A stretch of 64,000 nucleotides of DNA from Ignavibacteriales bacterium (GTDB lineage: Bacteria; Bacteroidota; Ignavibacteria; Ignavibacteriales; Ignavibacteriaceae), in contig JAGUYG010000050.1 in assembly GCA_020061465.1 (NCBI GenBank), positions 1 through 64,000 of the forward strand, read 5' to 3'. A program made the position numbers and the translations under genes. Below the pieces are notes generated by a model. That model saw nothing but the letters and a program-made list of their open reading frames with translations. It was not told where the DNA came from and did no database searches. The number at the start of each line of letters is the position of its first letter. The first letter of the stretch is position 1. Shown here piece after piece: positions 6,739-23,979 of this stretch.

Positions 6739-7000
6739 AACCTGTTTCATTAAACTTCTCGAACCAAAAAAACATAAGTAATTCAGATATCTGTACTTAC
6801 TCTGCGTACTATCCTCATTAATTGTTCATTCATTCCCACAACAATAGTTGAAAATATTACATGTAACATTGTAGTACACGCCTAAATGTTATGTCTCTTA
6901 TTAAACCAAAAAAATGCGAATAAGTGCGGTATTAAACAATTATTGCAAGACATTTGGCGGCATGGTATTTGGAAAACTATCAGAAAAAAATAGAATAATT

Positions 7001-7846
7001 ATGAGAAAAAAAGTACAAATTTTGCCTTCCGGTATACCTTTAGTGGATAAAATCTGGAGGGGTTTTTACAGGGGCGGTTCTTATTTGCTAATCGGTCAGC
7101 ATAAAACAGGAAAAACTTTGTTGGGACTACAATATGCCAGAGAATGCGTTAAGCAGAAGGAAGTTTGTCTTTACTTCACATCCATCCGCCCAAAAGAGCT
7201 GCTAATCCATGCAGCATCTGTCGATTTTGATATTCAGCACTATATGGATCAAAATCAGATAATACTTATAAGAGTTACACCCCCCGAAGAACTTTACGAC
7301 GGCAGCGATGCAGATTCATTCTTGATGGAATATATGAAAGACCTTGAATTGGTTGTGGAACAGGCTGAACCGGACAAAATTGTATTTGATGAGATGACCC
7401 CTTTTATCGGATTTCAGGACAGTGAACTGTTAAAAGATGTGTATGCACATACTACTGAGATAATTGAAGAGGCTGGTATTACAAGTTTATATGTTTTACG
7501 GGATCCGGCTACGGTTGCGGCTAAGCAACTGGTGGATTCAATAGTTAGTCTTTCAACCGGCGTTGTTTATCTTGAAAAGAAAACCGATGAGAAGAAAGGA
7601 GAGATGATTATTACTCCTAACATCGGGCATTATGAAGGACAAGTTAAATCGGAATATATTATTGAGCCGCACAAAGGTGTGGTTTTGGAATTGATTGATG
7701 AAGAAATAAAGAAAAAAATTTCTACCGGAGGAAACGGTAAACGTTTGGAAGGGAACACCCCAAAATTTCTAAGTTTAAAGCGAAGAGGGTTGAAGACTGA
7801 ACCCAAAGCTTCGGCAAATTATAAATACAGCCTAAACATACTGTAA
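7001..7846 (+). CDS. KaiC/RAD55-like RecA-fold ATPase, intact Walker A
   Basis: A single-domain KaiC-like ATPase of about 281 residues. Walker A is GQHKTGKT (residues 32-39, Lys38) and Walker B is KIVFDE with Asp130 and Glu131. The frame is open back to 6914, but the ATG at 7001 aligns exactly with the start of the paralog at 7895 (both begin with M, three basic residues and a short hydrophobic stretch before SGxxLVD), so it is preferred. It lacks the second KaiC domain of the cyanobacterial clock protein. Forty-eight bases separate it from its paralog, and the two lead an operon ending in an outer-membrane TPR-barrel gene. A signalling or regulatory ATPase role is likely; the target is unknown. 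Confidence 0.8.
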   Translation: MRKKVQILPSGIPLVDKIWRGFYRGGSYLLIGQHKTGKTLLGLQYARECVKQKEVCLYFTSIRPKELLIHAASVDFDIQHYMDQNQIILIRVTPPEELYDGSDADSFLMEYMKDLELVVEQAEPDKIVFDEMTPFIGFQDSELLKDVYAHTTEIIEEAGITSLYVLRDPATVAAKQLVDSIVSLSTGVVYLEKKTDEKKGEMIITPNIGHYEGQVKSEYIIEPHKGVVLELIDEEIKKKISTGGNGKRLEGNTPKFLSLKRRGLKTEPKASANYKYSLNIL

Positions 7847-7894
7847 TTTTTTTATTATGAGCTGTAAAATTTTGACAATAAAAGTGATAAGGAA

Positions 7895-9142
7895 ATGAAA
7901 AAGAAAATAGAACTAATCACGTCTGGTGTCTCTTTGGTTGACGGCGCATGGGGTGGATTCTATCGGGGGGGTACCTATCTGATGGTAGGACCGCGTAAGT
8001 CGGGTAGAACATTGCTCGGCTTACAATATGCAATGGAATGTGCCAGACAAAAGGAGGTGTGCTTATACTTTACAAGTATGCGCCCGAAAGATTTGATGAT
8101 CCATGCAGCATCGATCGACTTCGACCTTCAGCACTATATGAATCAGAACCTTATCATAGTCGTTAGGGTTGCTCCTCCTGCAGATTTGTATGAGGTTGGC
8201 AACCCTGATGATTTTCTTGTTGAATACTTAAAGGACATCGTAACGGTAGTAGAGCAATATCAACCGCAAAAAATTGTTTTTGATGAGCTGACACCTTTTG
8301 TGGGATTTGATGACGTTAATCTTTTATACCATGTTTTTCTTCAAACATGCGAAACAATAGAGGAAAGCGGAATTACCAGCTTGTTCATAGTAGGTGAACC
8401 TGCAACGCCGGCTACAAAAGAAATCGTCGATGCTCTTTCAGCAAACGTAACAGGAATGATTTTTCTACAGCGTCCTAAAGATACTGAAGGAAGAACTCAA
8501 GGCGGAAGAATGAGCATTATTCCAAATATCGGTCATACCGAAGGAGAATTTACAGCAAACTACTATATAGAGCCGTATAAAGGAATTGTGGTTGAGCATG
8601 AAGCTTCCATACCGGTTGCCCGGGCTGCTGCAGCTAAACCGGTACGCACGGAAGAAAAATATACCATCCTTGCCAATATGGATTTACCGAAAGAGGACTA
8701 TTCATATTCTAATTTTTACAATGCGAATGATTTTAAGTTAATTCTTAACAATCAAATTGCGCTATTTAAAAGCACCGGACAGGTGTTTACCATTCTTTCG
8801 TTCAAGTTTGATCACACAGCCGAACAAATGGGCTTATTAACATTGAATCAGTTAAAGAATGCAATCAGGCTTTCCACCGATAAGAAAGATAAAATTTGTG
8901 TTATTGAGGATAAGGTTGTAGTGCTGATAACAAAAGAAGATCAACAGGCAATAAAAAATATTATTGCAAAAGTAAAAAGTAATTTACCAGGCGACGATCC
9001 TTCATACATCACTAAGGTAGTGCAGTATATTTCCGTTTATGCAATTAGAGTGGATGAGAAAACGAGGAATGCCGACGAGATGCTGCACGAGCTGTTGTTG
9101 GAAAATGTTTCCGAAAAAAATAGACTTGGATTTTTTAATTAA
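7895..9142 (+). CDS. KaiC-like ATPase paralog with altered Walker A and extra C-terminal domain
   Basis: A close paralog of the preceding protein over residues 1-250. Its P-loop reads GPRKSGRT (32-39): the essential Lys is Arg38, so ATP hydrolysis may be lost or weakened. Walker B (KIVFDE) is kept. After a linker, residues about 270-400 form a second alpha/beta domain (TGQVFTILSFKFDH, then VIEDKVVVLITKED) whose pattern resembles a worn GGDEF or GAF-like fold. No GG(D/E)EF signature remains, so that assignment is tentative. A partner or sensor subunit for the active paralog is a reasonable guess. The next gene begins 12 bases downstream. Confidence 0.78.
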   Translation: MKKKIELITSGVSLVDGAWGGFYRGGTYLMVGPRKSGRTLLGLQYAMECARQKEVCLYFTSMRPKDLMIHAASIDFDLQHYMNQNLIIVVRVAPPADLYEVGNPDDFLVEYLKDIVTVVEQYQPQKIVFDELTPFVGFDDVNLLYHVFLQTCETIEESGITSLFIVGEPATPATKEIVDALSANVTGMIFLQRPKDTEGRTQGGRMSIIPNIGHTEGEFTANYYIEPYKGIVVEHEASIPVARAAAAKPVRTEEKYTILANMDLPKEDYSYSNFYNANDFKLILNNQIALFKSTGQVFTILSFKFDHTAEQMGLLTLNQLKNAIRLSTDKKDKICVIEDKVVVLITKEDQQAIKNIIAKVKSNLPGDDPSYITKVVQYISVYAIRVDEKTRNADEMLHELLLENVSEKNRLGFFN

Positions 9143-9154
9143 AAGAAAGCGGCT

Positions 9155-12010
9155 ATGAAAACTAAATTGATAATTACGGCAATTCTTTTAATTACGTTCG
9201 TATCTGGCTTTACAGCAGCACAAAATTCGGTAACTGCACTTAAGAGTGAAGCACAAAAACAAATGCAGGTCGGAAGATATGGAGAGGCTATCGATTTATT
9301 GAATAGATATGTTTCTGCCAGACCGCAGGAAGCCGCCGGTTTCAATCTAAGAGGGCTGTGTTATGAAAAGCGCGGTCAGTACGAAATGGCTGTCTATGAT
9401 TTCAGATCTGCACGAAAACTCGAACCTACGAACAGAGAAATTAATGAAAACCTAAGCCGGGCGACAAACGATTGGTACAAGCTTCTCTATAATAAGATCG
9501 AAGGTCATCGCAGGGAGATTGCATTAAATCCGAACAAGGCATTGAATTATCTTGAAATAGGAAAATCATACAAGAACTTAGGCGAGTGGGCTTTGGCTGA
9601 GGAATGGTACGATCAATACCTGCTAAGAGAAAAAGCATCACCTGACGAAATTATAAGATATTCGGAAATCCTGGCAAAAAACGGGCATATCGCAAAAGGA
9701 GAACCCATACTTAAAAGATACACGGAAGAATTCCCGACTGATCAAAGGTTGTGGTCGAGGTATGGTTATTTTACTCTATGGCTTGGCAAAAACAAAATAG
9801 CGATAGAGGCATTTGAGAATGCCCTGGAGATAAAACCCTTCTTCAAGGAAGCGATGGATGGATTAGATCAGGCACGCGGAAAAGGGTATATCTATACAGT
9901 TAATGATACTTCGGTAAAACATACTTACGGCATTGCACCAAAACCACCTGTCTATGAGTATGCAATAGACCGTTACTACAGAATACTCCGAAGGAATCCC
10001 GGCGATACAAATTCTCGGTTCAAGCTGGTAGAAGAGCTTGTGAATGCAAATAGATATGAAGAAGCGTATAATCAGCTTCAGATTTTGGCTGAGACTCAAT
10101 CCAGCAATACAAGATTTATCGACCTCTGGCAGAGTGTTACCAAAGCAAGAAATGATTACTATGCCGCACAGATTGATAAATACAAGTCTCGATTGGAATC
10201 CGATCCTTATGACAGGGAAGCCACATTGAAGTTAGCTGAATATTATGCTTATATGAAGGAATACGACACTGCAATGGGCATTCTTCAAAAGTATTTGCAG
10301 ATGAAACCCGAAGATCAAGTTGTTAATTTCCGCCTAGCACAGTACGCACAGTGGAATAAGGACTATGCTTTATCAAAAGAGATTTTAGATGGTTTGCTTT
10401 ATCTTGATCCAAACAAAACCGACTACCAATTGTTAAGAGCTCAAATAGCGGTATGGTCTAATGAAGATCTTGACAAAGCACAAACACTTTTAGAGAGTGT
10501 TCTTAGAAAAGATCCTCAGAATATGCAGGCACTTATTGCACTGGGTATGCTGAATTTCCAGAAGCAGGATTATGTATCGGCTCAAAAATATTTAAGCAGT
10601 GCGAAAAGTATCGATCCGAATGATGCAGATGTGAAGCAGCTTCAATTTAATCTTGATCTTCAAAAAGAAAGAAACCGCGAAGCAGCGTTGTATTCTATAC
10701 TTGAAGAAGCAAGAAAAGAAGTATTTGATGAGAATTGCTCACGAGCAATCGAGCTTTATAATTCTTATCTGACCAAAACCGAAGCTTCGGTAAAAGTTTG
10801 GGAGGAAATAGCTCAAGCTTACGTTTGTGCAAAAAACTATGACAAAGCTGTGCAGATTTATTCAGATTTAATTGAGAAAAACAATAGTTTTGAATTACGC
10901 AGACAGAGGGCGAAGGTTTATTATTGGGCAGGCGATTCGCTCCTTGCACTGCAAGAATTTGAAAAGCTTGTTGCCGAAAATCCCGATGATATTGAATCCA
11001 GAATTTATTTAGGCGATTCATACATGGCAATAAAAGATTACGATAAAGCTTATGAAATTTATGACCGGCTCTTAACCGAGTATCCTTCATCCCAAATTAT
11101 ACAAATGAGAATGGATTGGCTGGGTAAAGGTGAACCCGGCTTAGGCTATCCCGGAGAATTTCCTACATATTTTCTTATAAGTCCGGAAGCCAGTTATTTT
11201 GCAGATAACTTAAAATTCAGGTATGATTTACAGGGATTAAGAGTTGAAGTGGGAATAACAAGCTTTCTCGCTGCCGGTGCTTCGGCATTTCGCGGAGGAA
11301 TTGAAAATGATGCCGACCGCTTAAACTTGAGTGTTTTCAGAGGGCACCTGTACGGCAGGATTAGTAAACTCGTTACAACTTATGGCAGCTTAGGACAAAC
11401 TATTTTCAGCAATAAAGAAAGTTCACCGGTAATTGAAGCAAGTCTTAGAGCAGAAAAGCCGGAAAAATTCTTAGCAGGAATATATTATACTTCAATGGAT
11501 GCCGTCCAAATTCTTTACTCTCCATACCTCGTAACCGAAAGACTGCGGGTTCATGATTTTACGGCTAAAGGTTATTATCACCTTGAAACGGGTCTGTTTT
11601 TATCGGGTAAAAATACATACTTGAATGTTTCGGATGGAAATTCCGGTAACAGTTTCGAGCTTCGAGTAGGCAAAACGTTTGAAAAAGATTTTAGAGCCGG
11701 TTATGAATATTACTATTTGAATTTTAATAACAGATCTACGTTGTATTGGTCACCGGCTAATTACCAATCGCACAGCGGCTGGGCAGAATGGGATATTATA
11801 AGCGATAGAACTTCAGTAATTACTTTCGGAGGTAAACTAGGAATAATTCCTGAAAACAACTATATTCTTCGAGAAATTTTTGGTGCAGCAAGGATAAAAT
11901 TAGTAGAAGGTTTTACAATTCAAGCTAGATTAGCTACCGGAAGCACCGTGCAGCAAAGATTGGGATATAGTTCAACTTCATTCGGTATCGCCGCATTCTG
12001 GACGTTCTAA
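9155..12010 (+). CDS. TPR protein with C-terminal outer-membrane beta-barrel (PgaA/BcsC-like layout)
   Basis: A 951-residue exported protein. A signal peptide ends near residue 22 (FTAAQ). Residues about 25-670 are a run of tetratricopeptide repeats with the usual A/G/Y/A/P spacing (for example YEKRGQYEMAVYDFRSA). Residues about 675-951 are beta-rich with alternating aromatic residues and end in a terminal Phe (FWTF), as in outer-membrane barrels. The TPR-then-barrel layout matches the polysaccharide export porins PgaA, BcsC and PelB, although no close match is claimed. The position between KaiC-like ATPases and a processive glycosyltransferase supports exopolysaccharide export. A strong terminator follows at 12041. 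Confidence 0.83.
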   Translation: MKTKLIITAILLITFVSGFTAAQNSVTALKSEAQKQMQVGRYGEAIDLLNRYVSARPQEAAGFNLRGLCYEKRGQYEMAVYDFRSARKLEPTNREINENLSRATNDWYKLLYNKIEGHRREIALNPNKALNYLEIGKSYKNLGEWALAEEWYDQYLLREKASPDEIIRYSEILAKNGHIAKGEPILKRYTEEFPTDQRLWSRYGYFTLWLGKNKIAIEAFENALEIKPFFKEAMDGLDQARGKGYIYTVNDTSVKHTYGIAPKPPVYEYAIDRYYRILRRNPGDTNSRFKLVEELVNANRYEEAYNQLQILAETQSSNTRFIDLWQSVTKARNDYYAAQIDKYKSRLESDPYDREATLKLAEYYAYMKEYDTAMGILQKYLQMKPEDQVVNFRLAQYAQWNKDYALSKEILDGLLYLDPNKTDYQLLRAQIAVWSNEDLDKAQTLLESVLRKDPQNMQALIALGMLNFQKQDYVSAQKYLSSAKSIDPNDADVKQLQFNLDLQKERNREAALYSILEEARKEVFDENCSRAIELYNSYLTKTEASVKVWEEIAQAYVCAKNYDKAVQIYSDLIEKNNSFELRRQRAKVYYWAGDSLLALQEFEKLVAENPDDIESRIYLGDSYMAIKDYDKAYEIYDRLLTEYPSSQIIQMRMDWLGKGEPGLGYPGEFPTYFLISPEASYFADNLKFRYDLQGLRVEVGITSFLAAGASAFRGGIENDADRLNLSVFRGHLYGRISKLVTTYGSLGQTIFSNKESSPVIEASLRAEKPEKFLAGIYYTSMDAVQILYSPYLVTERLRVHDFTAKGYYHLETGLFLSGKNTYLNVSDGNSGNSFELRVGKTFEKDFRAGYEYYYLNFNNRSTLYWSPANYQSHSGWAEWDIISDRTSVITFGGKLGIIPENNYILREIFGAARIKLVEGFTIQARLATGSTVQQRLGYSSTSFGIAAFWTF

Positions 12011-12475: not shown

Positions 12476-13876
12476 ATGAAAACAGATCAAAAAACAAAAA
12501 AATCTACGCTAATTTTAGATAACTACGAGCCGCTGCCGGCTGCTGAGAATATTGAATCTAAACTTATCAAACGAATTTTAGTGAGCGGAATAATTTCACT
12601 TGTTCTTATACTAATTATTGCATATACCCTTCCGAATACTGTATTGTCGTTTGAATCTCTGCTTGAGTATGCTGTAATAGTGGCTTTGGTAATCTTCCTT
12701 TTTGTTTTGCTTGTTAGATATTTCGCTATACTCGTATTGGCGTATTTGTACATTAACCAATATACATTCAAAGCCGTGAATGGTTATTATCCGTTCGTAT
12801 CGATTATTGTTCCTGTTTACAACGAAGAAAAGGTTGTGGCAGATTCGGTAGGATCTTTACTGAAATTGAACTACTCAAATTATGAAATTATTATAGTTAA
12901 CGATGGTTCAAAAGATAAAACAAAAGAAGTAGCCGAAAAGTTAGTGGGTTATCAAAAAGGAAAATACGGTGACGTGAAAGTTTCGTTAATAAATAAACCT
13001 AACGGAGGAAAATCACGTGCATTAAATGCCGGAATACGTTACTCAAACGCTGAATTTGTACTTTGCATGGACGGCGATTCGCAATTATCTCCCGATTCAA
13101 TTAGAGTGGCTGTGCGACATTTTGTCAATCCCGAAATTGGCGCTGTAGCAGGTAATGTAAAAGTTCTTAATAGAAAAAAATTCTTAACTGATTTGCAGGC
13201 GCTTGAATACATTGAAGGTTTGAATATGGCTCGAAGCGCACAGAGTTATGTAAGAATGGTTAACATAATTCCCGGTCCCATAGGTTTATTCAGAAGGAAA
13301 GCAATTGAAGAAGCGGGATTTTATTCCAGCGATACATTTGCGGAAGATGCCGACTTAACGCTAAAGATACTTGCCAACGGCTGGAAGATATATTATGAAC
13401 CGAACTCGATTTCCTGGACAGAAGCTCCGGCAAAACTGCAGCAATTATTGAAACAACGTTACCGATGGACACGGGGTATTCTCCAATCAATCAGAAAGCA
13501 TAAGAATTTGCTGGTTAATCCTACAATTAACTTTGGCGATACATTCATACTCTGGACAATGTTCTATGAAGTATTGATTTGGCCAACAATGAACATTGCA
13601 GCAAATCTCTTCTTCATAACTGCAGCGCTTGCATTTGGTTTTACACAGCTTCTTTTCTTCTGGTGGGCTGGTTTGGCGCTGTTAGATTTAGTTACAGCTC
13701 TCTATTGCGTTGCAGTAGAGAAAGAGGAATTCAGGTTAGTGGGTTATGCTATAATTTACAGGATGTTTTTTATTCTGGTAATTGATATCTGTAAGGCGAT
13801 GTCAACCATTGAAGAATTTGTGGGAATAAAAATGACCTGGGGAAAATTACAGCGGGTAGGAACGGCAAAGGTATAA
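12476..13876 (+). CDS. Processive family 2 glycosyltransferase (polysaccharide synthase)
   Basis: A membrane-embedded beta-glycan synthase similar in layout to PgaC/IcaA and cellulose or hyaluronan synthases. Two N-terminal membrane segments (about 34-50 and 63-90) precede a GT-A domain with Asp143 (VNDGS), the DxD-type Asp199/Asp201 (MDGDS), the catalytic Glu290-Asp291 (AEDAD) and QRYRW at 327-331. Several C-terminal membrane helices follow. The QxxRW motif marks a processive enzyme. The sugar donor cannot be read from sequence. There is no PilZ domain, so regulation by cyclic di-GMP, if any, must come through partners. It heads a second unit of five or so genes. Confidence 0.88.
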   Translation: MKTDQKTKKSTLILDNYEPLPAAENIESKLIKRILVSGIISLVLILIIAYTLPNTVLSFESLLEYAVIVALVIFLFVLLVRYFAILVLAYLYINQYTFKAVNGYYPFVSIIVPVYNEEKVVADSVGSLLKLNYSNYEIIIVNDGSKDKTKEVAEKLVGYQKGKYGDVKVSLINKPNGGKSRALNAGIRYSNAEFVLCMDGDSQLSPDSIRVAVRHFVNPEIGAVAGNVKVLNRKKFLTDLQALEYIEGLNMARSAQSYVRMVNIIPGPIGLFRRKAIEEAGFYSSDTFAEDADLTLKILANGWKIYYEPNSISWTEAPAKLQQLLKQRYRWTRGILQSIRKHKNLLVNPTINFGDTFILWTMFYEVLIWPTMNIAANLFFITAALAFGFTQLLFFWWAGLALLDLVTALYCVAVEKEEFRLVGYAIIYRMFFILVIDICKAMSTIEEFVGIKMTWGKLQRVGTAKV

Positions 13877-13913: not shown

Positions 13914-14402
13914 ATGGAACTAATTCCGATATTATCAACGATTATTCTGGTTGCAACAATCAGTACTTTTTTCTTAGCAATCGGAGCGTACATCCTTTAT
14001 AAAATAAGGGAAAGAAGAGGACAGGAAGTACCTGCTATTCAACCGGCAACGGTTAGAGCCGAGCTTGTTACTCCTGCAGAGGCTCCTGCCAGAGAATACG
14101 CGCCGCAACCTGCATACTATGAACCGCAGCCCGCACCGGCTGGTTACCAAGCTGAAAGACAGCCGGTATTTGCGCAGCAGCAGGGTCGTCCGGCTCCGGC
14201 ATATATGCAAGGCAGGCAGTTTTCTCAACCCAGGCAGCCCGGCGCGCCAGGTTATACAAGACCGCAAGCTTATCAAGGACCAAGTTTCATTCCTCCACAA
14301 CAGGAAAGAAAGACGGGTGAAACAAAATTCTTTAAATATACTTCTGAAGGCTATGTACCGGCTAAAGAAGATAAACAATCAGGAGCATTAAAGTGGCGGT
14401 AA
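13914..14402 (+). CDS. Small membrane protein with Pro/Gln-rich cytoplasmic or periplasmic tail
   Basis: I do not recognise a family. Residues 5-30 form one membrane helix (ILSTIILVATISTFFLAIGA) followed by basic residues, then a low-complexity tail of about 110 residues rich in Pro, Gln, Ala and Tyr, ending in a short charged segment (ETKFFKYTSEGYVPAKEDK). A purine-rich GAGAGG lies just ahead of the ATG. Its position next to the synthase is like that of PgaD or other small synthase partners, but there is no sequence argument for homology. It overlaps the next gene by ten bases, so the two are probably co-translated. Confidence 0.72.
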   Translation: MELIPILSTIILVATISTFFLAIGAYILYKIRERRGQEVPAIQPATVRAELVTPAEAPAREYAPQPAYYEPQPAPAGYQAERQPVFAQQQGRPAPAYMQGRQFSQPRQPGAPGYTRPQAYQGPSFIPPQQERKTGETKFFKYTSEGYVPAKEDKQSGALKWR

Positions 14403-16318
14403 ACAATCGAATGGGAGCCCAGAGGAACATATCTCCTTATAGGAGCAGCGTTAATCATTTTACGATTTTCGTAACGGGTATGATCATTCTTATAGGTGCT
14501 ATCATCGTTTATTTGTTTGTTCTGCGCGGTATATTCGGAAAGTTTAATCCTGGAGATTTAATTCCTAGTTCCAGTGTAGTTAAAAGCGTTGTTGAGGGCG
14601 GAGAACCGACTATCGGGATACTCTATTCAAAATATACCGAGAATATGTTTGCCGAAGGTAGTACATGGTTAAATGACAATATTACCACATGGAAAAAATT
14701 TCTAGATAATTCCAAGCTGCGTTATGACATAATTTCCGATGCCGATATCGAATTAGGCAGGCATATCAAATATCAAATGCTGGTACTGCCTGGCTCAAGA
14801 TCGCTTAGTGATAAAGAAATATCACAGCTAAAAAAATATATCGATAGAGGCGGAAGTGTTTTTGCTACCAGCGGTATTGCTTCATACTCCAGCGACGGTA
14901 AATGGAGGGGCTGGGAATTTATATCGCAAGTATTCGGGCTTGAATTTAGTAAAGAAATCGAAAATGATGATATTACAAAAATTCATACCTTAAGAGGCGG
15001 GCTTCCCCTTACTGCAAATATTCCCACCGGCTTTCCGCTTAAGGTTGCCACGTGGGATAGACCAATGTCAGTTAAAGTCTTAGACCCCCGTACAACACAA
15101 GTAAGTTTCTGGTACAACTACCGGTTGGAAGATGGGTTAGTTAGAGAGGAAGTGAAGAAAAGCGCAGGTATTGTGTACGGTACGTATAACAAAGGCAGGT
15201 TTGTATGGATGGGATTTGAGATCAACTCTGTTATTGGAGTGCAGGAAGATTATGTTTACTTTGAAAAATTATTCAATAACTGTATCAACTGGCTCACATA
15301 CGGACCCGTTGCATATATTAAAGACTGGCCAACCGGATTCAGGGCTGCAGCCATGATTGCTCCAACATTAAAGGAAGATGTTGAAAATGTTAATTATTTA
15401 TTAGATGTTCTGCGGTCTGAACGGGCTCCGGTCACATTCTTCGTTTCACCGCTTGAAGCAGAAGCCAGACCAAATTTAATTAAATCGCTCTCAAGATATG
15501 GCGAGGTTGCCGCTATAGTTGATGTAGGGTACTTAACATCGGTTAACGATACCGTTAATCAGCTTGATGATTATGATATACAATATGATAAACTGGCTAA
15601 TGCCAGATCAGCTATCGAAAAAGCCACCGGCGCTAAAACCTTTGGCAGCATTCCTTACTACGGATTATTTGATCCGAACACAATAAAAGCGGCAATCGAT
15701 GCAGGCTATAAATATGTGTTAACTGATTCTTTAACTGACAGGTCAGTGCCAAAAACAATTATACGGGGTGAAAATAGAATAATAACAATGACAAAAACTG
15801 CGCGGGATGATTATGAGGTTATCCGCGATTTTGGCTTAACCGCTCCAGAATTTCAGTTTTATACTTATCAGGAAGATATTGATAGAGTATTGTTTGAAGG
15901 AGGCATGTATATATTTAAGTTCCATACTGACTATCAATGCCAGCCCGCCAATGTGAATGTTGTACGGGATGTTATACGAGACCTTAAGAAAAAGGGATTC
16001 TGGATTGCTACCGGTACCGAAATACAAGAATGGTTTGCAAAGAAAGACTATATCGAGATGAGAACGGAAAAAAGAGGAGAAACACGTGTTGCTCTCATCG
16101 TGTCCAATCCCGGTGTTAAAACCATTAATCAATTGGTTGTTGAAGTTGACTTGAACGATCCTGCCCGTAATATTATGTTAAATACTGAAATTATCGGTAC
16201 AAAGCCTGCAAGATTTGAACATAAAGAAGGAAGCAAGGTTCTTTTTCTTCATATCGACGACCTAAAACCAAAAGAATCGCGCACCTATTATATAGATTAT
16301 GATAAACCAAATGCTTAG
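14393..16318 (+). CDS. Membrane-anchored deacetylase-like protein lacking catalytic motifs
   Basis: GTG start overlapping the previous gene. One N-terminal membrane helix (about 25-48) is followed by a flavodoxin- or amidotransferase-like domain (about 70-290; YQMLVLPGSRSLSDKE, then IDRGGSVFATSG). A polysaccharide-deacetylase-like barrel follows (about 310-530; APVTFFVSPLEAEARP, IPYYGLFDPNTIKAAI). The metal-binding Asp-Asp and His-x3-His motifs expected in active NodB-type deacetylases are absent. A C-terminal beta-sandwich (about 545-640) ends the protein. It resembles a pseudo-enzyme PgaB or PelA partner. A paralog follows 40 bases downstream. Confidence 0.75.
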   Translation: MAVNNRMGAQRNISPYRSSVNHFTIFVTGMIILIGAIIVYLFVLRGIFGKFNPGDLIPSSSVVKSVVEGGEPTIGILYSKYTENMFAEGSTWLNDNITTWKKFLDNSKLRYDIISDADIELGRHIKYQMLVLPGSRSLSDKEISQLKKYIDRGGSVFATSGIASYSSDGKWRGWEFISQVFGLEFSKEIENDDITKIHTLRGGLPLTANIPTGFPLKVATWDRPMSVKVLDPRTTQVSFWYNYRLEDGLVREEVKKSAGIVYGTYNKGRFVWMGFEINSVIGVQEDYVYFEKLFNNCINWLTYGPVAYIKDWPTGFRAAAMIAPTLKEDVENVNYLLDVLRSERAPVTFFVSPLEAEARPNLIKSLSRYGEVAAIVDVGYLTSVNDTVNQLDDYDIQYDKLANARSAIEKATGAKTFGSIPYYGLFDPNTIKAAIDAGYKYVLTDSLTDRSVPKTIIRGENRIITMTKTARDDYEVIRDFGLTAPEFQFYTYQEDIDRVLFEGGMYIFKFHTDYQCQPANVNVVRDVIRDLKKKGFWIATGTEIQEWFAKKDYIEMRTEKRGETRVALIVSNPGVKTINQLVVEVDLNDPARNIMLNTEIIGTKPARFEHKEGSKVLFLHIDDLKPKESRTYYIDYDKPNA

Positions 16319-16358
16319 TCGAAAAAAGATTATCGAATTAATTTTTTCGGAATAATTA

Positions 16359-18092
16359 ATGAAACTGAACGTTACAATATCGTTTACTTTCCTGGCAGCT
16401 TTGCTATTCGTTTTTGCGCTGAACATTTCTGCGCAAAATAGAATTGGATTGGTTTATTCGGCGAACACAAAAAATATTATTTCCCCCGGGCAGCCTTCTG
16501 CCTCTGATGCATGGGAATTATATTTCATGAATAATAAGATCGCCTATAAAATCATTACCGATGACGATTTAGAAGATAACGACTTAGACGATGTTGATTT
16601 GCTAATATTCCCGAACGTTCAGGTGCTTAACGAAGATCAATTATCTAACATCAAAGATTTTCTTATTGAGAAGAAAGGAATTTTTATTCTAGGTAATTTC
16701 GGTACGTACAATGACGACGGAAAAATGCGCAGCACATCTTACCTGCAATCATTAACAGGATTCGAAGCCGAAGAAGTCCGTACCGATAGTAAAATTTCGC
16801 TGATCCACACGTTAGGAGGTAACTCCGCATTAACGCACAATATTGAAGGGGGAACTAAATTATTAGTTAGTGCTAGACCTCTTCCTCTTGCGGTATCTAA
16901 TCCTGTAGTGCCGGTTAATTACTTGGGAGAATATCTACTTTCCGGGAATTTTATCAAAAGCGATGAGCAGGCGGTAAAGCACGGCGCTGCTTCATTAGAG
17001 CTGCGGGACGGCAGAATAGTTTGGTTAGGTTTTGGTTTAGAACAATTAATTGGAGGCAGTGCGGAAAAAGCTGTCTTTGATTCCTTTTTACGTAACGTAT
17101 TCGATTGGTTGGGCACAACGCCTATTGCATTTGTTAACACGTGGCCCAAAAAATACGAAGCTGCGGCTGTTTTTACTGCATACATCGATCCGCAATATTT
17201 GAACATAAATGAATTCGAGAATTCTCTAAACAGGTTAGCAGTTAAAGGAAATTTCTTTTTGTCTTATACATCCGCTGCTCTTTACACTAAAGTATTATCT
17301 TCTTTAGGTTTGCTCGGCGAGGTTAACCTTACGTGGGATGAGTTCAGCTTTTACCAAATGACGATACAAGATAAACGAGATTGGTTAAGACAGGCTATCG
17401 GATTATTAAAAAGCGTATCGGGTCAAAACAGTTTTGGTTTAAGAGTTTTCGGTCCAATTGTTTCTTCAGAAAATCTTAAGTTAATAAAAGAATCAGGATT
17501 TGATTATATTTTTACCAATGGAACCAACGCTTCGCTGCTGCCCGAAAAGAACACTGTTAACGGATTATTTGTTCTAACCAAAGAAAATAGAGAAGCAGAC
17601 GAAGTTTTTAAGTCGCCCCGGCATCGTTCTAACCTTGATTTGGCTGCCGCTGTTTATAAGAGCGATTATGATAGAGTTAAAAATCATGGCGGATTGTATG
17701 TCTTGAATTTTTTAAATCAAATAAATAAAATTGACGGAAGTTACGAATACCAATTTCTTTCCGACTTAAAAAGATATTTAGAGAAAAACGGTGCATGGAT
17801 AACAACTTTCTCAAAAGTGATTGAGTGGCTGAATATAAAAAGGGATATTAGAATATCTATACTTAAAAGAGATGAAGAAAGATTCTCACTGCAGGTTTCT
17901 AACAACGCTGCAAAAAACGCACAGGATATAAACATAGTGGTTTCAATTCCTCAGCGCATTTCCGGGCTTCAGTTAGAAACCGGTTCGAAAGATTATACTG
18001 TTGCATTCGATGAGGCTAAAAAAAACTTTTTTTTAACTATTCCCTCGCTTAGATCAAGGGAAAGTTTGACCATAGAATTATATGGAAAATAA
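16359..18092 (+). CDS. Exported paralog of the deacetylase-like protein
   Basis: Signal peptide at residues 1-25 (ending NISAQ), then the same order as the preceding protein: an amidotransferase-like domain (DLLIFPNVQVLNEDQ, then GIFILGNFGTYNDDGK), a deacetylase-like barrel (GNFFLSYTSAALYT, FGPIVSSENLKLIKESGF) and a short C-terminal beta domain. Again there is no His-x3-His and no TFDD-type motif. The protein is secreted rather than membrane-anchored. Tandem duplication with loss of catalysis in both copies suggests a structural or glycan-binding role in the export machine (inference). Confidence 0.75.
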   Translation: MKLNVTISFTFLAALLFVFALNISAQNRIGLVYSANTKNIISPGQPSASDAWELYFMNNKIAYKIITDDDLEDNDLDDVDLLIFPNVQVLNEDQLSNIKDFLIEKKGIFILGNFGTYNDDGKMRSTSYLQSLTGFEAEEVRTDSKISLIHTLGGNSALTHNIEGGTKLLVSARPLPLAVSNPVVPVNYLGEYLLSGNFIKSDEQAVKHGAASLELRDGRIVWLGFGLEQLIGGSAEKAVFDSFLRNVFDWLGTTPIAFVNTWPKKYEAAAVFTAYIDPQYLNINEFENSLNRLAVKGNFFLSYTSAALYTKVLSSLGLLGEVNLTWDEFSFYQMTIQDKRDWLRQAIGLLKSVSGQNSFGLRVFGPIVSSENLKLIKESGFDYIFTNGTNASLLPEKNTVNGLFVLTKENREADEVFKSPRHRSNLDLAAAVYKSDYDRVKNHGGLYVLNFLNQINKIDGSYEYQFLSDLKRYLEKNGAWITTFSKVIEWLNIKRDIRISILKRDEERFSLQVSNNAAKNAQDINIVVSIPQRISGLQLETGSKDYTVAFDEAKKNFFLTIPSLRSRESLTIELYGK

Positions 18093-19848: not shown

Positions 19849-22800
19849 TTGCAATCCGAATATAAATTAAATAGTAACTTACTAAGTGCTCTCAATGAAA
19901 ACATTTTAAACCCATTTATAGTATTTGACAAGCACGGCAATATTCTTTCCATAAACAAAGAAGCCACTACATTATTATCTGTTCAGCAAACCCCCCGCAA
20001 TATTTTCGATCTTGTTGATGAATCTTATTATGATGAGATCAGAGAGCTGTTCAAAAAATCGATTAGCCAAAGTAAACCATACTCAGAAAATATCCGGGTG
20101 CTGCTGAAATCAGGTGAAGAATTGAATCTGAACCTTTCTATCAATAAGTATATTGAAGAGGGACAGCTCTTTCTATTCTGCTCACTTAAGGAAGAAAAAT
20201 TTATAATTGAACCTAAAGGGAAAGCATCGCTGAAAGTAATAACCGGAGAAGTAAGCGATGTTATTACAAACAAACAAATAATTTCCGTTTTAGAGCAGGT
20301 AAAATCATTATATCCTTTTACATTTATCGGGAAAGAAAAAATCCGCAAAGAGATAAATAGTCTTGAAGAATCATTTTGGATTAAAGATAATGAAGGCAGA
20401 TACGTAATTGTAAATGACAAATTAGCTCAAAGTTTGGGTGTGAAAACTACTCAGTTGGAGGGAAAGTACGAAAAATCATTTATCCCGGAGTATTTTTTAA
20501 CTCTCTACGGTTCAGTTGAAAAATTTATTCAGGAATCATTAAACAGTGTAATTATTGAGGGCATTCCTTTAAAAGGAATCGCATTTGCTGAAAATTTTCA
20601 AACGATTGAGATTCCGTTGAGCGATGCCGATAACAATGTAATTGCCATCATAGGTATAATACAGAAAACCCGTAGCAGGGTAACAAGAACAACCAAAACA
20701 GAAATAAAATCAGTTTTTGATAAACTATTAAACAGCATTCCTATTGCTGCCGCCATGTTGGGTGCAGATTCAACTTTCAAGCATGCCAACAAAGATTTTT
20801 GTAAATTACTCCTGACTAATATTGATAAATTAAGAGGACTAAAGCAGGAAGAAGTTTTTTCGGAAGAAGTTGCCGGTAAATTGAAAGCATTTTTAGAGTT
20901 ATCCGACACTTCGCAAAAGTTCGATTTTTTTGGTACTTTTACAGAGTCGTTTGAGAATCTTCGCGGTTATAAGATTGCCCTAAATAAAATATTCAACAAA
21001 GAGAGGCAGCTTGAGAGAATTATCATCTTAATTGAAGAGGACAATTCTGAAAATGAGTTAGAAAAAATAATTATTCGGCGAGGAAGAATGTTTGAAATAC
21101 TAATAAAAAATAACCCGGAACCTATTTACATCTATGATAAAGAAAATTTAAGGTTCCTGGAGGTTAATGACGCCGCACTGAACTTATATGGTTTTCGAAG
21201 GGATGAGTTCCTTCAGATGGACCTAACAGACCTCTATACACCGGAAGACATTCAAACATTGCTCGATTCTTCAGCCGCTAAAACTAGGGAAGGAAATTTC
21301 GGTGGACCTTACAGGCATAAAAGGAAAGACGGGGCGTTTATTCTGGTAGAGATTAGCAAGATTAGTTTTAAGTTCAAAGACAGGGATGCACACTTTAACA
21401 TCATTAAGGACGTTACTGAAAAGTTAGAGCTCGAAAAGAAAGCACAAATTTTCAAATCTGCTTTTGAACATACCGACGATTTATTATTCATTACCGACAG
21501 CAGCGGATTCATCTCCTACGTTAATAAGGAAGTGCTTGGATATTTGAATTATTCACGTGAAGATATTATAGATTCTTCATTTGCTTCCCTCGTTCGCGAC
21601 GAAGAAAGAGGAACAATCAATACAACTATCTTCCATTCTCATTTAAAAGACAGTGTTACCATTGTGATGGACATAAAGCGAAAGGGGGGAAACTTTAGAG
21701 AAGTAGAAATTACTGCATCACCGATCCTGAATTATAACGGTGAGATAGACTCCTTTGTTATTCTTGGGAAATATGAGAAGGATGTAAAACCTCCTAAGGA
21801 AATAATTAAAGAAGTTATAAAAGAAGTAATCGTCGAGAAACCGGTTAAAATAAAGGAAGAAGCATCTGTTATCGATCAAAATCAAACCGCATTTCTTTCA
21901 AGCATGTTCCATGAAATCTTAACGCCAATCAACGTTATACTCGGGTTTGTTCAAGAACTAACGGGCAGCATCAAGACCCTTTCTCCGGAACAGAAGGAAG
22001 CTGCATCAATTATTGATCAGAACAGAAATAGTTTATTGAGTATCATGAACTCTGTGGTTGAATATTCCAATATTGAGCAGGGTAAAACGGAATTAAGTTT
22101 ACGCGAGATCAGCATAACTGAAATTATTGATCAAATACAAAAGGATATTGAGAATTTTCGAAATGTAAGGGAGGTTGAATTTGCATACGGGAAAATTTCG
22201 TCATCCTTAAACTTTATTTCTGACAAACAAAAATTTCAACATTTGGTTTCGCTGCTGCTAAAAATTATCATCCAACTAAGCAAAGCAAAAAAAATATATT
22301 TTTCGGCAATATTAATAGATGAGGAAACCTTTGCAATTTCAGTTAAAGATAGTTACTCATCCGTGTCAGACAATTTGTTGAATAACATTTCTGCAATATT
22401 CCAGAAGGATGAAACTTCAATAGATAAAGATTACGGAATTTCGAAGCTAACTTCCAGGCTGGCTAAGCAGCTTCTATCTTTGCTGAAAGGTAACTTTGAA
22501 ATTATCGAAAAGGATACAGGAAGATTCGATTACGGCTTTATCTTTCCGATTGATTACACGGCTTATAGAATACCGCAGCCTGAAGAAGAGATTGTCTATC
22601 AGCAAGCGCCAAGCTCATTTAAAATCGAAGAAACAGAATCGGAAGAAACTGAAGAAATTGTGTCATCCGAGTCTGCAGAAGAAATTAGTGAGAAAGAGGA
22701 AAAGGAACTTTTTGAAGAAGAGGAAACTAAGGAGTATGCAGCCGGAATATATGATACAAAATCTTCCGGTCAGCTTGATTTATCTAGACTCAGATGTTTA

Positions 22801-23157
22801 TACATCGAAGACCAGGTTGATTCTCAGATTCTCTTCAAGGTGCAAATGAAGGAACTTAAAGAGATAAAATTCGCCGTAAGTTTTGAAGAAGCCTTACCTC
22901 TGCTTGACAGCGACAATTTTGATTTTATAGTGATGGATATTAACCTTCAAGGCGAGTACAACGGTCTTGATGCATTAAAAATAATTCATAAAATGTCCGG
23001 ATACGAAAAAATCCCTATCGTTGCAGTTACTGCCTATGTTCTTCCGGGCGATAAGGAAAAATTCATTGCAACAGGATTTCACGACTTTATTTCTAAACCC
23101 ATCTTCCGTGAAAAAATGATTGACTCTTTAGAGAAGATTTTCTTAATGCAGATGTAA
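19849..23157 (+). CDS. Multi-PAS hybrid sensor kinase with receiver domain and poorly conserved ATPase domain
   Basis: A 1102-residue soluble sensor. Several PAS domains fill residues about 10-640 (for example NPFIVFDKHGNILSINK, EPIYIYDKENLRFLEV). A charged linker of KEVIKEVIVEK type leads to the dimerisation/phosphoacceptor domain with His688 in FHEILTPIN. The following ATPase region (about 790-905) lacks a clear N box and DxGxG motif, having KDSYSSVSD instead, so autophosphorylation is doubtful. After an acidic linker (about 925-970) comes a receiver domain with Asp1030 (VMDINLQG). The start is TTG: an in-frame stop at 19840 rules out anything further upstream, and no ATG occurs in frame for hundreds of codons. 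It is probably the regulator of the adjoining locus. Confidence 0.82.
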   Translation: MQSEYKLNSNLLSALNENILNPFIVFDKHGNILSINKEATTLLSVQQTPRNIFDLVDESYYDEIRELFKKSISQSKPYSENIRVLLKSGEELNLNLSINKYIEEGQLFLFCSLKEEKFIIEPKGKASLKVITGEVSDVITNKQIISVLEQVKSLYPFTFIGKEKIRKEINSLEESFWIKDNEGRYVIVNDKLAQSLGVKTTQLEGKYEKSFIPEYFLTLYGSVEKFIQESLNSVIIEGIPLKGIAFAENFQTIEIPLSDADNNVIAIIGIIQKTRSRVTRTTKTEIKSVFDKLLNSIPIAAAMLGADSTFKHANKDFCKLLLTNIDKLRGLKQEEVFSEEVAGKLKAFLELSDTSQKFDFFGTFTESFENLRGYKIALNKIFNKERQLERIIILIEEDNSENELEKIIIRRGRMFEILIKNNPEPIYIYDKENLRFLEVNDAALNLYGFRRDEFLQMDLTDLYTPEDIQTLLDSSAAKTREGNFGGPYRHKRKDGAFILVEISKISFKFKDRDAHFNIIKDVTEKLELEKKAQIFKSAFEHTDDLLFITDSSGFISYVNKEVLGYLNYSREDIIDSSFASLVRDEERGTINTTIFHSHLKDSVTIVMDIKRKGGNFREVEITASPILNYNGEIDSFVILGKYEKDVKPPKEIIKEVIKEVIVEKPVKIKEEASVIDQNQTAFLSSMFHEILTPINVILGFVQELTGSIKTLSPEQKEAASIIDQNRNSLLSIMNSVVEYSNIEQGKTELSLREISITEIIDQIQKDIENFRNVREVEFAYGKISSSLNFISDKQKFQHLVSLLLKIIIQLSKAKKIYFSAILIDEETFAISVKDSYSSVSDNLLNNISAIFQKDETSIDKDYGISKLTSRLAKQLLSLLKGNFEIIEKDTGRFDYGFIFPIDYTAYRIPQPEEEIVYQQAPSSFKIEETESEETEEIVSSESAEEISEKEEKELFEEEETKEYAAGIYDTKSSGQLDLSRLRCLYIEDQVDSQILFKVQMKELKEIKFAVSFEEALPLLDSDNFDFIVMDINLQGEYNGLDALKIIHKMSGYEKIPIVAVTAYVLPGDKEKFIATGFHDFISKPIFREKMIDSLEKIFLMQM

Positions 23158-23213
23158 TTTTTCTTCTTACCATACCTCTCACTTAAACATTCTATCTGCT
23201 GAAAAATAAGCCC

Positions 23214-23260
23214 TTGACAATTGTCTTTGCCTTTTATAATTTACCATACAAATGTATGGT
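23214..23260 (+). promoter_or_regulatory. lexA promoter with palindromic operator
   Basis: TTGACA at 23214-23219 and TATAAT at 23235-23240 (15-base spacing) resemble a sigma-70 promoter. Immediately downstream a perfect palindrome, ACCATACA-AA-TGTATGGT, lies at 23243-23260, where a repressor would block initiation. Being about 95 bases ahead of lexA, it is a good candidate for a lineage-specific LexA box and autoregulation. I did not find a clear second copy ahead of dinB. Confidence 0.55.
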
Positions 23261-23355
23261 ATTTATATCAAACTAATTTTTACTTCAATTATAGTAACTG
23301 GTAAAAGTTTAGAGTAATTGCCGGATAACAATAATTAAGAAAAACAAGGTGCGGC

Positions 23356-23979
23356 ATGGCGAAAGAATTAACTGAAATTCAAAAGAAAATTCTCGAATTT
23401 CTTATTGAACAAAAAACAAGGTTGGGTATTCCACCCACATTAGCAGAAATAGCAAAGTTTTTCGGATATAAAAACCGCGCAACCGTGCAGCAGCATTTGC
23501 AAGCTTTAGAGAGGAAAGGATTCATAAAGAAAAACAAAAAACTTTCCCGCAGTATTGAATTGACTTTAGAAGATAAGTTTTTTATTCCACGTCCGGTGTT
23601 AGGAGAAGTAGCAGCAGGCAATCCGCTGATAATTTATCCCGATGCCATTGACACCGTTGAACTGCCCACGATTGCGCGAATGCCGAAGGATTCTTTCCTG
23701 TTAAAGGTAAAAGGTGACAGCCTAAAAGATGCTTATATCTTCAGCGGTGATATCGTAATTGTAAATCCTAATCTTGAGCCAAAGAACGGTCAATTTGTAA
23801 TTGCAATTCTTGATGATGCCGCAGTAGTAAAAAGATTTTTTAAGAAGCGGAGTGAAATTGAACTTGTTTCTGAAAATCCGGAATATAAACCGATAGTGAT
23901 TCCTAAAAATCATCCGGCATTTAAGCTAGTTGGAATTGTTATTGGCGTTTATAGAAGCATGGGTAAAAAAGCGGGATAA
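23356..23979 (+). CDS. lexA: LexA repressor
   Basis: SOS-response repressor and self-cleaving serine protease. A winged-helix DNA-binding domain (residues 1-65; PPTLAEIAKFFGYKNRATV) is followed by the peptidase domain with the Ala87-Gly88 cleavage site (GEVAAGNP), Ser122 (KGDSLKDA) and Lys159 (AAVVKRF), the same spacing as in E. coli LexA. The length of 207 residues is typical. dinB lies 2.6 kb downstream on the same strand, so the DUF72 gene and dinB are probably its ancestral neighbours, now separated by toxin-antitoxin modules. Confidence 0.95.
   Translation: MAKELTEIQKKILEFLIEQKTRLGIPPTLAEIAKFFGYKNRATVQQHLQALERKGFIKKNKKLSRSIELTLEDKFFIPRPVLGEVAAGNPLIIYPDAIDTVELPTIARMPKDSFLLKVKGDSLKDAYIFSGDIVIVNPNLEPKNGQFVIAILDDAAVVKRFFKKRSEIELVSENPEYKPIVIPKNHPAFKLVGIVIGVYRSMGKKAG

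Follow-up and report, generated by a model that had tools for sequence, protein, structure and literature searches.

The Aspergillus fumigatus galactosaminogalactan deacetylase Agd3 (CE18 with CBM87) combines, according to the accessible portions of PMC7229062 and PMC10967932, an amidotransferase-like α/β domain bearing conserved tryptophans, a NodB-like carbohydrate esterase domain and a C-terminal β-sandwich. PelA (CE21), which belongs to an exopolysaccharide operon with the partner export protein PelB, carries a ThuA/IFT52-like α/β domain, a deacetylase domain and a β-rich domain (PMC12022489, in the part of the text available). The same domain order is seen in two adjacent genes, here termed P1 and P2, of an Ignavibacteriales bacterium. 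They lie in a stretch of 64,000 nucleotides of contig JAGUYG010000050.1 (assembly GCA_020061465.1), referred to below as the window.

The nearest folds reported for Agd3 in the available parts of the two papers, 3QBU and 3RXZ, are among the best matches of P1. In contrast to Agd3, which is an active metal enzyme, P1 and the window's P2 lack the Asp-Asp and His-x3-His residues (motifs CM1-4). Their domain order equals that of the last three PelA domains as far as these are described in the accessible text, and P1 gives a weak Pfam match to IFT52, but neither protein has the N-terminal glycoside hydrolase domain or the catalytic residues of PelA. No sequence match to Agd3 or PelA was seen among PDB sequences with P1, P2, the P2 relative P0003 (described below), A1 and A3 as queries. 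Neither enzyme is among the 50 structure matches listed for P1 and P2, which says nothing against kinship.

With PgaB and IcaB, deacetylases of poly-N-acetylglucosamine (PNAG), the pair shares a periplasmic deacetylase fold and the neighborhood of a PgaC-like synthase and a TPR protein. In the PNAG deacetylases (NodB2), motif MT5 stands at the N-terminus (PMC10967932, accessible part), whereas the MT5-like H511 of P1 comes last, close to where the NodB domain ends. Membership of the PgaB group was rejected, as the NodB domain is not circularly permuted and no hydrolase is added. The CE4 pseudoenzymes BA3943, Ba0150 and EcCDA have the NodB fold in common with P1, their catalysis being absent or presumed absent. 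BA0330 and BA0331 have this fold too; they retain Asp-His-His and no activity was found. Unlike P1, none of these proteins is described, in the portions of the literature available, in a polysaccharide synthase operon or in tandem with a partner that bears the motifs in a relative. Pseudoenzymes of CE4 are already known; the setting of P1 and P2 adds a variation on them. Title and abstract searches on pseudo-deacetylases, exopolysaccharide deacetylase systems and Ignavibacteria found no published account of this operon, most subscription papers lying outside their coverage, and no mention of Ignavibacteria was found in the accessible part of PMC7112194.

In our reading, P1 is a pseudo-deacetylase that now serves as a permanent structural component of a synthase-dependent polysaccharide system, where it would bind the polymer and guide it, and the window's P2 is a copy that has lost catalysis; the probability of this reading is put at roughly 0.6. 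The operon runs in the order KaiC-like ATPase, TPR/barrel protein, PgaC-like synthase, small transmembrane (TM) protein, P1, P2 (where present), FN3 protein and PAS kinase. P1 is regarded as a fixed part because its conserved NodB surface is kept apart from the base, most of the metal triad and the MT3 Arg, its 10-nucleotide overlap with the preceding gene is constant and its place after the synthase is conserved. Anchored in the membrane, P1 would bind the nascent polymer through the former active-site groove and the tryptophan-rich α/β domain and, without deacetylation, would convey it onward from the synthase to the TPR/barrel exporter. P2 would stem from an old tandem duplication and would have remained active in one or more genera; its catalysis would have disappeared later, on more than one occasion, and the window's copy, being among those that lost it, would be either a helper or in decay. 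The earlier note on this DNA had proposed new roles in glycan guidance or assembly; glycan handling fits the operon, while a new role is at most suggested, and the window's P2 may represent plain decay.

PNAG systems are described as requiring deacetylation. The Pel system likewise requires it for biofilm formation (PMC12022489, in the part available). Here, most of an order appears to keep the body of a deacetylase and to drop its chemistry, one genus retaining an intact twin, and this natural P1/P2 series allows the polymer-guiding role of such proteins to be separated from the catalytic one. The label "polysaccharide deacetylase" would mislead for P1, even though the protein passes the Pfam cut-off.

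Folds and catalytic residues of P1 and P2

BLASTP aligns P1 with P2 at 27% identity over 576 columns (E 7e-54), and they are therefore homologous over nearly their whole length, as the tandem duplicates postulated by the earlier note should be. Hydrophobic 19-residue segments are located at residues 25-43 of P1 and 5-23 of P2, with none past residue 80 in either, as expected for an inner-membrane anchor in P1 and a signal peptide in P2; the earlier note had called one of the two membrane-anchored and the other secreted. P1 matches the Pfam family Polysacc_deac_1 with 30.5 bits against a cut-off of 23.1, from profile position 19 onward, and below the cut-off it weakly matches IFT52, GH42 trimerisation and GH57; no hydrolase domain exceeds the cut-off in P1, where the TM helix directly precedes the α/β domain. 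P2 matches no Pfam family above cut-off.

AlphaFold2 models built from 31-row alignments have a predicted local distance difference test (pLDDT) score of 75.5 and a predicted template modeling (pTM) score of 0.70 for P1, and of 76.3 and 0.78 for P2. In a structure search of the PDB, P1 residues 308-554 match 3rxz (Z 27.4, 2.2 Å over 234 residues), 1z7a (Z 25.0), PuuE 3cl6 (Z 24.8) and 3qbu (Z 24.8), with the pseudoenzyme BA3943 also present (Z 19.8). Both predicted structures have the (β/α)7 NodB fold that characterizes CE4 (against 3rxz, Z 27.4 for P1 and 20.6 for P2). The first domain of P2 (residues ~28-255) resembles GH42 trimerisation (Z 16.9) and ThuA-like (Z 15.8) domains. The corresponding domain of P1, in which pLDDT is low at about residues 192-257, is assigned only through homology to P2 and the weak Pfam matches. 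Together, the models, the fold matches and the homology support for both proteins the order ThuA/amidotransferase-like, NodB and β-sandwich that had been noticed before.

The motif scan covered 70 distinct P1 and 28 distinct P2 sequences and sought H-x3-H together with a D-x-D/E-type (TFDD) motif. Neither motif occurs in P1 or P2 of the window, which bears out their reported absence, and both occur together in 0/70 P1 and 2/28 P2. With no P1 among the 70 carrying both, loss by chance or in a single genome was rejected as an explanation. The two motif-complete proteins belong to one genus, g29: the P2 of locus L064 (P0003, with a 100% match in genome G369) and that of L107 (genome G028). Their motifs are SCDVE, HGDDH and FRPPE, followed by NIHTQ or NFHTQ, and P0003 is alignable to CE4 structures across part of its catalytic-motif region.

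In contrast, P1 and the window's P2 lack the MT1 base and metal Asp, the MT2 H-x3-H and the MT3 Arg of CE4 enzymes. By alignment, P1 keeps, alone of the window's pair, the MT4 Asp (D445, 54/54) and the MT5 His (H511, 53/54); the window's P2 is without the MT5 His. Judged by these CE4 motifs, both proteins are predicted to be non-catalytic. Among 54 distinct P1 rows, on which all column counts are based, the base position 325 is T in 14, V in 10, E in 6 and S in 5, the metal Asp/Glu position 327 is S in 25, G in 10 and T in 9, and the MT3 Arg position 420 is L in 13, M in 12 and I in 9, with other residues in the remaining rows of each. The position of the first MT2 His is A in 17, S in 11 and T in 10, besides others, or L in 25 and I in 22 under an alternative alignment.

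Other NodB residues are conserved in P1; the earlier note had thought such conservation in the former active-site pocket worth checking. D445, P453, D472, D473 and Q515 are present in all 54 rows and H511 in 53, and each is shared with both intact P2 proteins, as are P421 (51 rows), D449 (51) and R450 (52). The NodB domain of P1 contains 28 columns conserved at 95% or more, 16 of which match the residue in both intact P2 proteins. Since H511, D445, D472 and D473 occur in the intact P2 as well, they are not considered new ligands. W171, W174, W240, W272, W300 and W312 are Trp in every row.

Duplication and loss of catalysis

In a tree of 47 rows, the P1 (25) and P2 (22) sequences are separated by one branch with a Shimodaira-Hasegawa-like approximate likelihood ratio test (SH-aLRT) value of 97. 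The tree is unrooted and comes from a quick search with no bootstrap, and it contains long branches for the P2 of L169 and L109. As P1 and P2 fall on opposite sides of a single branch, the duplication is judged to be old; a duplication confined to the source genome was rejected on this split and on tandems in other families. Because the P2 side includes two proteins with the full CE4 motif set, the gene that was duplicated most probably encoded an active enzyme, with separate losses in P1 and P2. If the root is on the branch between them, a single loss of catalysis in P1, preceding the divergence of the lineages, is probable; for P2 the drawn topology suggests no fewer than two losses and no more than four. 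The earlier proposal of duplication after loss of catalysis thus finds no support in this unrooted tree and the two motif-complete P2 proteins.

P2 evolves faster than P1, because P1 identity is the higher in 91 of 91 genome pairs. Among the pairs listed, identity to other P2 proteins is 22-30% for the window's P2, compared with 48-63% for the P1 counterparts, and in L042, L008 and L009 P2 is shortened to 250-258 amino acids. In the order, P2 was seen in only 14 of 62 loci (from two locus sources that partly overlap). These properties would also be expected of a decaying, functionless duplicate, an account of the window's P2 that we consider possible though unlikely. Against decay, many P2 proteins retain the open reading frame (ORF) and the N-terminal hydrophobic segment, the fold is still predicted, and of 13 loci outside the order, 10 retain the tandem. 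The best reading of the window's P2 on present comparisons is a fast-evolving former enzyme.

It is improbable that the loss preceded the duplication and that the intact g29 P2 has a separate origin, either as an older gene or by transfer. The unrooted tree leaves room for this, and the branch that joins the g29 P2 with six degenerate P2 proteins has an SH-aLRT of only 84. However, all sampled members of this group come from the window's order, which means that an older paralog requires many losses elsewhere; moreover, the other six P2 proteins in it are degenerate, and the g29 P2 occupies the same operon place as other P2 genes. A wider scenario may tentatively be drawn, although we would not bet on it: in part of the phylum the deacetylase would have become an obligatory non-catalytic polymer guide, fixed at the synthase, before a deep lineage split, its tandem twin remaining catalytic for a while before being inactivated in one lineage after another, which would make deacetylation of the polymer optional.

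Alternatives to a structural P1

Several observations weigh against the reading of P1 as a polymer guide. P1 might still be an enzyme with another chemistry, resembling the allantoinase PuuE, in which the metal site is lost and the MT4 Asp and MT5 His are kept. PuuE 3cl6 and its kin 1z7a rank among the top folds, in 3CL6 the MT1 Asp is missing, as is the second MT2 His, while MT4 and MT5 are retained (PMC10967932, in the accessible part), and D445 and H511 persist in P1. Such a function is nonetheless quite unlikely, as P1 is also devoid of the first MT2 His and of the MT3 Arg, and its MT1 positions vary freely, unlike those of a reused active site. Furthermore, the MT2 alignment hinges on gap placement, the first His falling opposite either T382 or I375, and D386, which aligns with the second metal His, is specific to P1 and conserved as Asp in 52 of 54 rows; a non-classical metal site may exist around it. 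Outside P1, the synthase is nearest to PgaC yet scores below the equivalog cut-off (TIGR03937, 202 versus 422 bits), and in the TPR protein, where TPRs are found, no family model detects a β-barrel. Deacetylation in trans by another genomic enzyme that P1 merely recruits is no likelier than a PuuE-like P1, for although the genome has three further PF01522 genes, two of which (behind L182 and L183) carry TFDD and H-x3-H, all three are on other contigs, outside the operon, and nothing ties them to it.

Operon and spread in the phylum

The coordinates of the operon and of the domains of P1 and P2 are given in Table 1; those of the earlier note for the pair proved correct. The overlap between the small TM gene and P1, constant in all 61 loci, suggests that both proteins are produced jointly at the inner membrane. 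Most of the listed tails of the small protein end in KWR or KWK. The DxD, ED and QxxRW motifs of processive synthases are intact in 30 of 30 full-length orthologs of the GT2 protein.

P1 is present in 55 of 59 relatives. A search with the intact P2 gave matches in 134 of the order's 164 genomes. A sample of the phylum gave 38 of 296 genomes, of which 27 belong to the order and 11 to other families. Among 34 loci of the P1 operon, some cut by contig ends, the synthase and the small TM gene are present in 32 each, the TPR/barrel gene in 29, the PAS kinase in 28, FN3 in 25 and the KaiC-like gene in 24; L106 (genome G283) was left out of the synteny counts owing to its weak match (51 bits). None of eight P1-less genomes tested has a GT2 match above 37% identity, compared with 66-94% for orthologs among the listed pairs. 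Other families of the phylum show the order KaiC, TPR, GT2, small protein, P1 again where the contig reaches. Three loci of family f26 have P1 without P2 and no match to the small TM protein; in two of this family, an unrelated-looking ORF of 335-336 amino acids replaces it (L104:6372-7379 and L105:6224-7234). In genus g163, an extra ORF of 405 amino acids lies between the TPR/barrel gene and the synthase (L177:4467-5684 and L178:3327-4544).

Table 1 Features of the P1/P2 locus, in window positions.
Feature	Position	Strand	Basis or remarks
KaiC-like ATPase, head of conserved operon	7895..9142	+	Pfam, synteny
TPR protein with C-terminal putative β-barrel, export candidate	9155..12010	+	Barrel predicted from sequence alone
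Processive GT2 synthase, PgaC/IcaA-like	12476..13876	+	TIGR03937 202 bits; DGDS/AEDAD/QRYRW intact
Small single-TM Pro-rich protein, gene overlapping P1	13914..14402	+	Synteny, overlap count
Overlap of small TM gene end and P1 start, 10 nucleotides	14393..14402	+	Same length in 61/61 loci
P1	14393..16318	+	641 amino acids, GTG start; predicted inner-membrane-anchored three-domain pseudo-deacetylase
P1 TM helix, residues 20-48	14450..14536	+	Helix in model; hydropathy 2.8 at 25-43
P1 ThuA/amidotransferase-like α/β domain, residues 74-303	14612..15301	+	Invariant Trp: W171, W174, W240, W272, W300
P1 NodB deacetylase fold, residues 308-553	15314..16051	+	Base, metal triad and MT3 Arg gone; MT4-like D445 and MT5-like H511 kept
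P1 C-terminal β-rich domain, residues 555-635	16055..16297	+	Secondary structure of model
P2	16359..18092	+	577 amino acids, ATG start; predicted secreted P1 paralog, deacetylase fold without catalytic motifs
P2 signal-peptide-like segment, residues 1-25	16359..16433	+	Hydropathy 2.3 at 5-23; sequence
P2 ThuA/GH42-trimerisation-like α/β domain, residues 28-255	16440..17123	+	Z 16.9 to 5xb7, 15.8 to 1t0b
P2 NodB fold, residues 260-497	17136..17849	+	3rxz Z 20.6, 3qbu Z 20.2
P2 C-terminal β-rich domain, residues 498-577	17850..18089	+	Secondary structure of model
FN3 lipoprotein, downstream of P2	18082..19650	+	Pfam, synteny
Multi-PAS hybrid histidine kinase, downstream	19849..23157	+	Synteny, domain search

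At the head of the window's polysaccharide operon there are two KaiC-like ATPases (positions 6914-9142). The C-terminal part of the KaiC-like protein of L097 (L097:761-2317) shows a weak GGDEF-like match below cut-off (PF17853, E 0.0042), which may indicate a degenerate GGDEF domain and a link of this ATPase to signalling. At the other end of the operon, the multi-PAS hybrid kinase includes a receiver domain (region 19849-23979), and a LexA-like gene comes next in many loci.

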